A DNA stretch of 64,000 nucleotides from Candidatus Thorarchaeota archaeon. GTDB taxonomy: Archaea > Asgardarchaeota > Thorarchaeia > Thorarchaeales > Thorarchaeaceae. Each line of letters starts with the position of its first letter. The stretch's first letter is position 1. Shown here one piece after another: positions 20,827 through 39,925 of this stretch. Location: contig PRDH01000078.1 of NCBI GenBank assembly GCA_003345545.1, positions 1 to 64,000 on the forward strand, written 5' to 3'. The translations under genes were made by a program, and so were the position numbers. Below the pieces are notes generated by a model. The model made no database searches and had not been told where the DNA came from. It saw nothing but the letters and a program-made list of their open reading frames with translations.

Positions 20827-20931
20827 GAGTCCGTTCGATGGTTTTCCTTTAAGAGTTATCTTTAAGCCGTCCCAGCGCTATGGTAATATTGGCAGTACGG
20901 TATGCCGAATCAAGACAAACTGGTGAACTCT

Positions 20932-21492
20932 ATGAGCGCTGTTGTCAGAGCATTTCTCAGTATCGATATCGCAGATCAGGTGTTAGTATCTCGTATTAGT
21001 GAGATTCAGCAGCAGCTGAACCCAGAGGGTGCAAAGATGAAGATAGTCGAGAGCGATAACATACATTTCACTATTCGTTTCTTTGGAGACACACCAATGG
21101 AGAGAATCGAAGAGATGAGAAACTGCTTGGGACAAATCAAGATTGTCCCCTTTGAGATAAAGATACAGGGAGTCGGCGCCTTTCCCAATAAACGAAGGCC
21201 AAGAGTGGTCTGGATAGGCGTGACCGAGAACTCGCAGAAAGTTGTTGATTTGAAGTTGAAGGCCGACGAACTCCTCACAGAAATAGGGTATAAGATGGAG
21301 AGAGAGAAGTTCAAGCCTCATGCGACTATTGCACGGGTTCGAAATGTCAAGAGTCCTGACTTAATGGTTCGAAATCTTGAAGAATTGGCAGACAGATCAA
21401 TAGGTAGTATGATAGTGAAGTCGCTCAGTATGAAAAAGAGTACCTTGACCTCTTCAGGGCCAATCTATGAAACTCTATGGATGGTTGAGTAG
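20932..21492 (+). CDS. thpR: RNA 2',3'-cyclic phosphodiesterase (LigT/2H family)
   Basis: A 186-residue 2H phosphoesterase. Both signature HxTx motifs are visible: HFTIRFFGDTP near residue 45 and HATIARVRN near residue 130. The family opens 2',3'-cyclic phosphate ends or 2'-5' linkages, as after tRNA intron cleavage. That fits a genome with tRNA introns, one of them immediately downstream. ATG 20902 would add ten residues. I prefer 20932, which has GGTGA six bases before it and matches the usual short start before VVRAFLSIDI. Confidence 0.88.
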   Translation: MSAVVRAFLSIDIADQVLVSRISEIQQQLNPEGAKMKIVESDNIHFTIRFFGDTPMERIEEMRNCLGQIKIVPFEIKIQGVGAFPNKRRPRVVWIGVTENSQKVVDLKLKADELLTEIGYKMEREKFKPHATIARVRNVKSPDLMVRNLEELADRSIGSMIVKSLSMKKSTLTSSGPIYETLWMVE

Positions 21493-21510
21493 GCAGATTA
21501 CGGGAAAAAG

Positions 21511-21647
21511 TGGTGGGCCGGGGGAGACTTGTTCCGACAGGGACTTCCCAAGTCGTTTGAACTCCCGGTCTCTTGCATTCTGTGACTTGAGGCGCGAATT
21601 CCTCAGTCGCCCCAAGCAAGAATCATACCAAGCTAGACTACCGACCC
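21511..21647 (-). tRNA. tRNA-Pro(GGG) with two introns
   Basis: On the minus strand the acceptor arms GGGTCGG and CCGGCCC pair fully (one G-T), the discriminator is A and CCA is encoded at 21511-21513. The D stem is GTC/GAT, the anticodon stem CTTGC/GCAAG, and the anticodon GGG is at 21611-21613. The first intron is 21578-21609 (32 bases), at the usual 37/38 site. Bulges GGC and AAT flank a four-position helix that includes one mismatch, then a GACT/AGTC intron stem. The second intron is 21529-21556 (28 bases) inside the T loop. It makes a near-ideal bulge-helix-bulge: GTTC/GAAC helix, three-base bulges AAA and AAG, and CGAC/GTCG intron stem. Removal leaves T loop TTCAAGT and T stem GGGAG/CTCCC. 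A minus TATA (CTTTATTTT) is near 21675-21684. Confidence 0.9.
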
Positions 21648-21706
21648 GTGCTAGCGAAGTCGGTATCTGAATTCAAAATAAAGATTGCCTCAGAGCACAT
21701 ATATTC

Positions 21707-21801: not shown

Positions 21802-22866
21802 TTGGTCACCGATCTTGTATTTCACGAGGCCTTCACCAAGCATGAGATGTCAATGGGACACCCTGAGAGTCCTGAAAGATTGAGAAGTGCAATGATGTAC
21901 ATCAAGAGGGCAGGTCATCTTAAGGACCCGAATTTGAATATCCTGACGCCAATGCCTGTGGACTTGGAGGAGGTCTATCGGATTCACGGAAAGGCATACA
22001 TAGATGGCATCCGCGAGAGTTCCTCAAGAGGCGGGGGTTTCTATACACCTGATACTGAAGTCAACGCACACACATATGAGGCAGCAGTGCTAGCGGCAGG
22101 AGGCGGCATTGATGCTGTGGACAGGATTATGGCTGGAAAGTCGAAGAATGCATTTGTATTATGTAGGCCACCTGGGCATCATGCCGAATATGAACGAGCA
22201 TTTGGTTTTTGCTTCATCAACAATATTGCAGTGGCTGCGAGTCATCTAGTGAAGGAATGTGGGCTCAATCGTGTCATGATAGTTGATTATGATGCACATC
22301 ATGGAAATGGTACTCAGAGTGCGTTCTACTCTTCGAATCGTGTGTTGTATGTCAGCCTGCATCAAGACGGAAGAACTCTGTTCCCAGGTTCAGGTTTCCC
22401 TGACGAGATGGGAAAAGGGGCAGGTCTTGGCTACACAGTGAATCTACCCATGTATCCAGGAGCTGGAAACATATCCTATGATTTGGCTTTCACAAATGTA
22501 ATCGAACCCCTTGCAGAAGTGTTCAGGCCAGAGTTTGTCCTCGTATCAGTTGGCTTTGATTGTCACTATCAGGACTCCCTGACCTCACTGGGTTTGACAA
22601 CATCAGGCATTGCAAAGATGAATGCGTGTCTAAAAGGGATTGCAGAAACCCATGCTTCTGGTAGACTGGCCTATTTCCTTGAGGGCGGCTACAATCTTGA
22701 TGCAATGGGCATGGGATCATTAAATGTAATTGAGGAATTGATGGGTGTCCCTGTCACAGAATTCAGTGATACATATACAGAGAATGATGCATGCACACGC
22801 TACACGAAAACGCTGATTGATAAGACTCTCAAGACTGCACCATTACTGAGTGAAGTCATCAAGTAG
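21802..22866 (+). CDS. HDAC-family deacetylase (class II / acetoin-utilisation type)
   Basis: A 354-residue zinc deacetylase. The catalytic segments are all present: RPPGHHAEYERAFGFCFINN with the paired active-site His, DYDAHHGNGTQSAFY with zinc ligands Asp and His, and VSVGFDCHYQD with the third Asp ligand. The order and length match histone-deacetylase-like amidohydrolases. Substrates in archaea may be acetyl-lysine or acetyl-polyamine; sequence does not decide. The TTG start at 21802 has AGGAGA ten bases before it. A palindromic operator lies in the promoter region. It converges on hel308 with a 24-base overlap of the 3' ends. Confidence 0.88.
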   Translation: MVTDLVFHEAFTKHEMSMGHPESPERLRSAMMYIKRAGHLKDPNLNILTPMPVDLEEVYRIHGKAYIDGIRESSSRGGGFYTPDTEVNAHTYEAAVLAAGGGIDAVDRIMAGKSKNAFVLCRPPGHHAEYERAFGFCFINNIAVAASHLVKECGLNRVMIVDYDAHHGNGTQSAFYSSNRVLYVSLHQDGRTLFPGSGFPDEMGKGAGLGYTVNLPMYPGAGNISYDLAFTNVIEPLAEVFRPEFVLVSVGFDCHYQDSLTSLGLTTSGIAKMNACLKGIAETHASGRLAYFLEGGYNLDAMGMGSLNVIEELMGVPVTEFSDTYTENDACTRYTKTLIDKTLKTAPLLSEVIK

Positions 22867-39814: not shown

Positions 39815-39925
39815 GCTCCGGTGGGCTGTTGAAGTGTTATACTGAAACAGTACCGAATGTAGTCCGGCCCAGCATGGGGGATTCTCGATCCCTCGACCCG
39901 GGTTCAAATCCCGGCCGGAGCACCA
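39815..39925 (+). tRNA. tRNA-Glu(CTC) with a D-arm intron
   Basis: The acceptor GCTCCGG (39815-39821) pairs with CCGGAGC, discriminator A, and CCA is encoded at 39923-39925. The anticodon loop TTCTCGA gives CTC, with stem GGGGA/TCCCT. The T arm is CCGGG/CCCGG around TTCAAAT. A 33-base intron (39825-39857) interrupts the D arm. The pairing CGGT/ACCG with bulges GGG and AAT, plus a GCTGTT/AACAGT intron stem, forms a bulge-helix-bulge. Cutting after GG and after AA rejoins GCTCCGGTGG to TGTAGTCCGG, the canonical tRNA-Glu 5' half. A second GCTCCGG copy lies at 39794-39800. Confidence 0.9.

Follow-up and report, generated by a model that had tools for sequence, protein, structure and literature searches.

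Archaeal tRNA genes with several introns, introns in the T loop, intron-rich tRNAs in Asgard archaea and variation in intron number at a single locus have all been published previously. The closest described counterpart of the gene reported here is the tRNA-Pro(UGG) gene of Pyrobaculum islandicum, for which the pertinent passages of PMC4090602, drawing on Sugahara et al. (2007), list introns at positions 25/26, 37/38 and 56/57. According to these passages, it combines a canonical and a T-loop intron with bulge-helix-bulge (BHB)-type sites in one tRNA-Pro, as does our gene, so that an arrangement which the initial annotation had called unusual was already on record. P. islandicum, however, belongs to the Thermoproteales, and its gene uses a different T-loop site and carries the third intron at 25/26, whereas the gene described below comes from a Thorarchaeon, an Asgard archaeon outside the Thermoproteales, with its T-loop intron placed at 58/59.

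Other systems share further aspects of this locus. In the Thermoproteales, related introns occur across tRNA identities and are rapidly gained and lost, as described for transposed introns (Fujishima et al. 2010, as covered in parts of PMC4090602 and PMC4033280); introns of different tRNAs are strongly similar there, whereas the similarity in Thorarchaeota is moderate and hints at transposition. The tRNA-Thr(GGU) gene of Caldiarchaeum varies in intron number at one locus between close relatives, as is the case here, although its sites are 24/25 and 45/46 and have been linked to a proposed mobile element (PMC3293823). Among Asgard archaea, tRNA introns of Atabeyarchaeia and Freyarchaeia are often non-canonical in position, with 92-95% of tRNA genes bearing at least one intron and over half bearing several; these passages of PMC11291895 concern the two named groups, and not Thorarchaeota introns, T-loop sites or presence and absence between close relatives.

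A literature search of incomplete coverage, which did not extend to supplementary tables, found no paper describing T-loop introns in Thorarchaeota. For an intron-rich archaeon such a gene is ordinary, and its value lies in comparison: the synteny of this locus across more than 30 Thorarchaeota, some with the T-loop intron, some without it and some with neither intron, makes gain and loss of tRNA introns directly testable in the archaeal group considered the likely source of eukaryotes.

Anatomy of a two-intron proline tRNA gene

The window, the whole 64,000-nucleotide stretch that was analysed, is part of a 71.6-kb contig from a MAG of 2.69 Mb (82 contigs, 92.9% complete, 5.4% contaminated). 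On the minus strand, the gene reads GGGTCGG TA GTCT AGCTTGGTA TGAT T CTTGC TTGGGG (32-nt intron) T GCAAG AGACC GGGAG TTCAA (28-nt intron) GT CTCCC CCGGCCC A CCA, and its parts are collected in Table 1. Read directly, the sequence yields a seven-pair acceptor stem (GGGTCGG/CCGGCCC), an anticodon stem CTTGC/GCAAG whose loop TTGGGGT presents the anticodon GGG, a T stem GGGAG/CTCCC, A at N73 and an encoded CCA. The intron boundaries given in the initial annotation are exact to the base.

Table 1. Coordinates of the tRNA-Pro(GGG) gene, its introns and its neighbours in the window.
Feature	Position	Strand	Evidence
tRNA-Pro(GGG) gene, two-intron precursor with encoded CCA	21511..21647	-	cloverleaf read directly; named Pro(ggg) by ARAGORN in the doubly spliced form only; single copy in the genome
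Exon 1, tRNA positions 1-37, last base G37	21610..21647	-	38/38 identity in most family members
Canonical intron, 37/38, 32 nt	21578..21609	-	clean empty site in G022 and G032, reading TTGGGGTGCAAG
Exon 2, positions 38-58, TTCAA at end	21557..21577	-	relatives aligned
GTTC (positions 53-56), 5' strand of BHB central helix	21559..21562	-	sequence; helix paired in 81.6% of cells, 19 relatives
T-loop intron, 58/59, 28 nt, ACGACTTGGGAAGTCCCTGTCGGAACAA	21529..21556	-	empty sites in relatives; covarying hairpin
GAAC, intron strand of BHB central helix	21531..21534	-	sequence; G at intron -6 in 67/71 family introns
Intron hairpin, CGAC/GTCG stem with GGG/CCC tip	21535..21555	-	two-sided changes at all four stem pairs across relatives
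Exon 3, positions 59-73 and CCA	21511..21528	-	relatives aligned
TATA-like box CTTTATTTTG, 27-36 nt upstream of the tRNA	21674..21683	-	CTTTATYTTG-like sequence 5' of most orthologous tRNA genes
Five-T run 3' of CCA, possible terminator	21505..21509	-	sequence
ThpR/LigT-like 2'-5' RNA ligase gene, tail-to-tail with the tRNA; locus marker outside the mechanism	20902..21492	+	Pfam LigT_PEase 1.3e-24; adjoins the tRNA in 28/30 fetched loci
Histone-deacetylase-like (HDAC-like) gene, upstream neighbour; locus marker	21802..22866	+	beside the tRNA in 27/30 fetched loci

The upstream neighbour is a gene that we take, from its sequence, to be HDAC-like. In agreement with the direct reading, ARAGORN runs on the four splice forms, with introns allowed, reported nothing for the precursor or for the form from which the canonical intron alone had been removed, miscalled a tRNA-Ser when only the T-loop intron was taken out, and named tRNA-Pro(ggg) once both were gone. 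Removal of both segments restores a full tRNA cloverleaf, as the initial annotation proposed, and the program recognizes a proline tRNA in the doubly spliced form alone. The unspliced gene is missed by ARAGORN and Rfam alike, and this is of practical consequence, as tRNAs of this kind are missed or misplaced by both: Rfam at its gathering score recovers just 23 tRNA genes from the ~93% complete genome, where about 45 would be expected.

The same locus in other Thorarchaeota

The exact 38-base pattern of exon 1 matches 34 DNA stretches, nearly all of them from Candidatus Thorarchaeota, and the order of the ThpR/LigT-like gene, tRNA-Pro(GGG) and the HDAC-like gene is kept across the family. At this orthologous locus, the T-loop insert is present in 19 of the 34 named relatives and absent from 15. 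All 15 insert-free loci have a plain 7-nt T loop at the same point, mostly TTCAAGT, and two of them also do without the canonical intron. The T-loop site is cleanly empty (TTCAAGT) in G005, G007, G012, G013, G014, G016, G019, G028, G030 and G034; in close relatives such as G007, the canonical intron is near-identical and exactly the T-loop insert is missing. A tree of ThpR and HDAC sequences from 29 loci requires eight or more changes, by gain or by loss, of the T-loop state and one of the canonical state; when only branches with support of at least 90/80 are kept and the rest resolved most favourably, the minimum for the T-loop state is four changes.

Each matched genome holds one match to tRNA-Pro(GGG), with the exception of G061. 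A second intact tRNA-Pro(GGG) gene, which the initial annotation had named as part of a case against its reading, was searched for in the window's genome (a MAG ~93% complete) and not found. In the G061 MAG, there are two such genes (L064 and L075, on G061:C203 and G061:C249), only one of which has the T-loop intron, and this genome is possibly a mixed bin. G019 and G030 gave additional matches; these, and the match in G021, were set aside as not Pro(GGG), since they read TTCGG and are Pro(CGG). Three further tRNA-Pro(GGG) genes (L104 in G026, L105 in G035 and L108 in G025) carry a D-arm intron in place of the canonical and T-loop introns.

Fold, splice point and probable processing of the T-loop intron

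The BHB motif claimed for the T-loop segment is present, with the helix GTTC/GAAC, the bulges AAA and AAG and the intron stem CGAC/GTCG; both the sequence and the helix counts in relatives place the two 3-nt bulges at the exon-intron borders, on either side of the 4-bp helix. Across 19 T-arm introns, a set that takes in three introns from other tRNA genes, the named BHB structure is paired in 85.3% of cells, and its covariation score is 0.343, compared with 0.170 in shuffled alignments (none of 500 shuffles reaches 0.343) and with 0.131 or less for slid partners. In the intron stem, each of the four pairs shows changes on both sides, that is, base pairing is kept by compensatory change. A given pair of the central helix is broken in up to five of the 19 introns, and these would therefore be relaxed motifs.

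Folding energies by themselves are no proof of the BHB. For the isolated arm, the 5-bp T stem with the intron hairpin is predicted at -16.6 kcal/mol and the BHB form at -14.8, and the central helix makes up ~7% of the predicted ensemble (probability near 0.07) because the 5-bp T stem competes with it. The fold energy of the T arm has a z of about -1.7 alone and about -0.1 with flanks, and a strict outer helix requires either a shifted register or a 5-nt 3' bulge. In folding terms, the motif may thus act as a relaxed one, and the enzyme would have to capture a minor BHB form or be helped by the precursor context.

The genome encodes components suited to this task. Of its two EndA-like genes, which lie at G000:C12:16964-17212 and C16:41472-41729, the one for the alpha subunit has the catalytic Tyr, His and Lys all in place (FAVY, DHAPFLVH, SVRKRF), and its product can be aligned with the alpha subunit of A. 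pernix (3p1z, 1.7e-41) across the region of the substrate-broadening loop, including its Lys, while the second, beta, lacks the catalytic His (AANAKELVYVL). From their sequences, the two would be expected to form an (alpha-beta)2 tetramer. Enzymes of this architecture with an A. pernix-type loop cleave relaxed BHB motifs outside 37/38 (PMC6379350), and by analogy the host endonuclease, with its A. pernix-like loop, is probably able to cut there too. RtcB is also encoded (1.8e-176). In the scheme that we propose, the transcript would bear two BHB-type introns, the (alpha-beta)2 splicing endonuclease would cleave each at its bulges, and RtcB would ligate the exons into a mature tRNA with a normal TTCAAGT T loop; we infer cleavage, ligation and the order of splicing. 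We are highly confident that this is the organism's tRNA-Pro(GGG) and that its two BHB introns are removed and its exons joined in this way, and judged from sequence the splicing of both introns is very likely. The initial reading of a tRNA-Pro(GGG) with a canonical and a second, BHB-type T-loop intron is backed by the empty orthologues, the covariation, the single copy (one MAG excepted) and the matching splicing endonuclease.

Where the T-loop intron is cut can be read less directly from the window, whose sequence alone permits a two-base slippage: with the repeated AA, three cut positions give an identical mature sequence, and T-loop positions 56/57 and 59/60 are both known from publication (PMC4090602). 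A real intron with its splice point at 56/57 or 57/58 is nevertheless very unlikely, because the introns of relatives end in GGAATAC|GT or GGAACTC|AT and, set against the empty TTCAAGT alleles, restore a normal T loop from 58/59 only. Cutting after the second bulge base likewise predicts 58/59. We have thus rejected 56/57 on the intron ends of relatives and, by this comparison, place the splice point at 58/59 (TTCAA|GT). Even more improbable is that the insert is never removed, leaving a pseudogene or a tRNA that works with an extended T arm. Such an arm does fold stably on its own, but neither the window's genome nor most of the relatives yielded another tRNA-Pro(GGG). The exons hardly vary, whereas the insert changes within the limits set by base pairing, the plain loop recurs at the same point in the insert-free relatives, and inserts of this type, if they stayed in place, would put about 25 different tRNAs of the lineage out of action. 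The fragmented and slightly contaminated state of the source MAG could also raise the suspicion of an assembly or MAG artefact; orthologous inserts at the same point in many independent assemblies, including the single-contig genome G036, refute this in practice and reduce its probability to a negligible level. We therefore retain the reading of a spliced intron at 58/59.

Distribution and origin of introns at 58/59

We then searched with R1, a covariance model of this T arm that is blind to the acceptor and CCA. At E <= 0.5, it matched in 38 of the 59 genomes of the first set; at E <= 0.001, matches were found in 36 of 47 family genomes and in 18 others, the latter in five further Asgard families. 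Removal of the insert gave a tRNA cloverleaf for 67 of the 70 matches parsed, nearly all of which are followed by an encoded CCA. Together with Pro(UGG) genes and others, these amount to 75 T-loop introns in about 25 isoacceptors, an approximate count, since the single-intron parser is unreliable on where the introns of multi-intron tRNAs lie and gets some of their anticodons wrong, and several isotypes were reassigned on inspection (L123 to Ile, L128 and L159 to Val). Lengths range from 28 to 31 nt, with 71 of the 75 introns at 29-30 nt. The window's genome has four introns at 58/59, in Pro(GGG), Leu(CAG), Thr(GGT) and Ile(GAT), and approximately 19 of its ~28 located tRNA genes bear introns. 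The T-loop intron that the initial annotation had thought unusual is therefore of a type common in this family.

The bases G53, T54, T55 and C56 and the following R57 and A58 are nearly universal in archaeal tRNAs. The T-loop intron would borrow the first four from the tRNA, with R57 and A58 sitting in the 5' bulge, and would itself contribute the complementary GGAAC (or GGAAT) and its own closing hairpin. As the T-arm bases are so widely shared, one intron design could be spliced from almost any tRNA at 58/59, and this would account for the fixed site, the near-fixed length, the ease of gain and loss and the recurrence in ~25 isoacceptors.

How the introns came to be so widely distributed is open to two accounts. 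They may have arisen independently in each tRNA, their likeness reflecting the demands of the BHB and the enzyme alone, a possibility that we rate at only just below even. Consistent with it, introns of different tRNAs have a mean identity of 0.58-0.62, compared with 0.51 when shuffled (within a genome, 0.618 and 0.510), and even these values come from a search model that favours look-alikes. It sits less well with the almost fixed lengths, or with the hairpin tip GGGAYTTCCC, which recurs across tRNAs whose introns reach identities of up to 0.87 and is not required by the BHB. Tip recurrence and cross-tRNA identity suggest common descent or transposition instead, and we keep this at the level of a suggestion, given the modest average similarity and a search that is biased towards look-alikes. 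More specifically, Thorarchaeia might harbour one mobile family of ~30-nt T-loop introns that has spread to ~25 isoacceptors at 58/59 only, a proposal that we hold tentatively, as somewhat less than evenly probable. If it were correct, the invariant GTTCRA would be a ready-made half of a BHB, new insertions would be spliceable at once and close to neutral, and the spread of a mobile family would have left its mark as repeated gain and loss at orthologous loci.

Additional introns at other sites were seen in the same genome. The tRNA-Thr(CGT) gene L011 (G000:C27) has a 30-nt T-arm intron near 53/54, a site distinct from 58/59, and L090 (G000:C7:13500-13900) is a tRNA-Pro(CGG) with a ~30-nt D-arm intron and no T-loop intron. 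Within the window itself, positions 39815-39925 on the plus strand encode a tRNA-Glu(CTC) with a 33-nt non-canonical D-stem intron (39825-39857, near 10/11); ARAGORN's call at 39850-39925 has a false 5' end, and the spliced form, 39815-39824 joined to 39858-39925, is recognized as tRNA-Glu(ctc).
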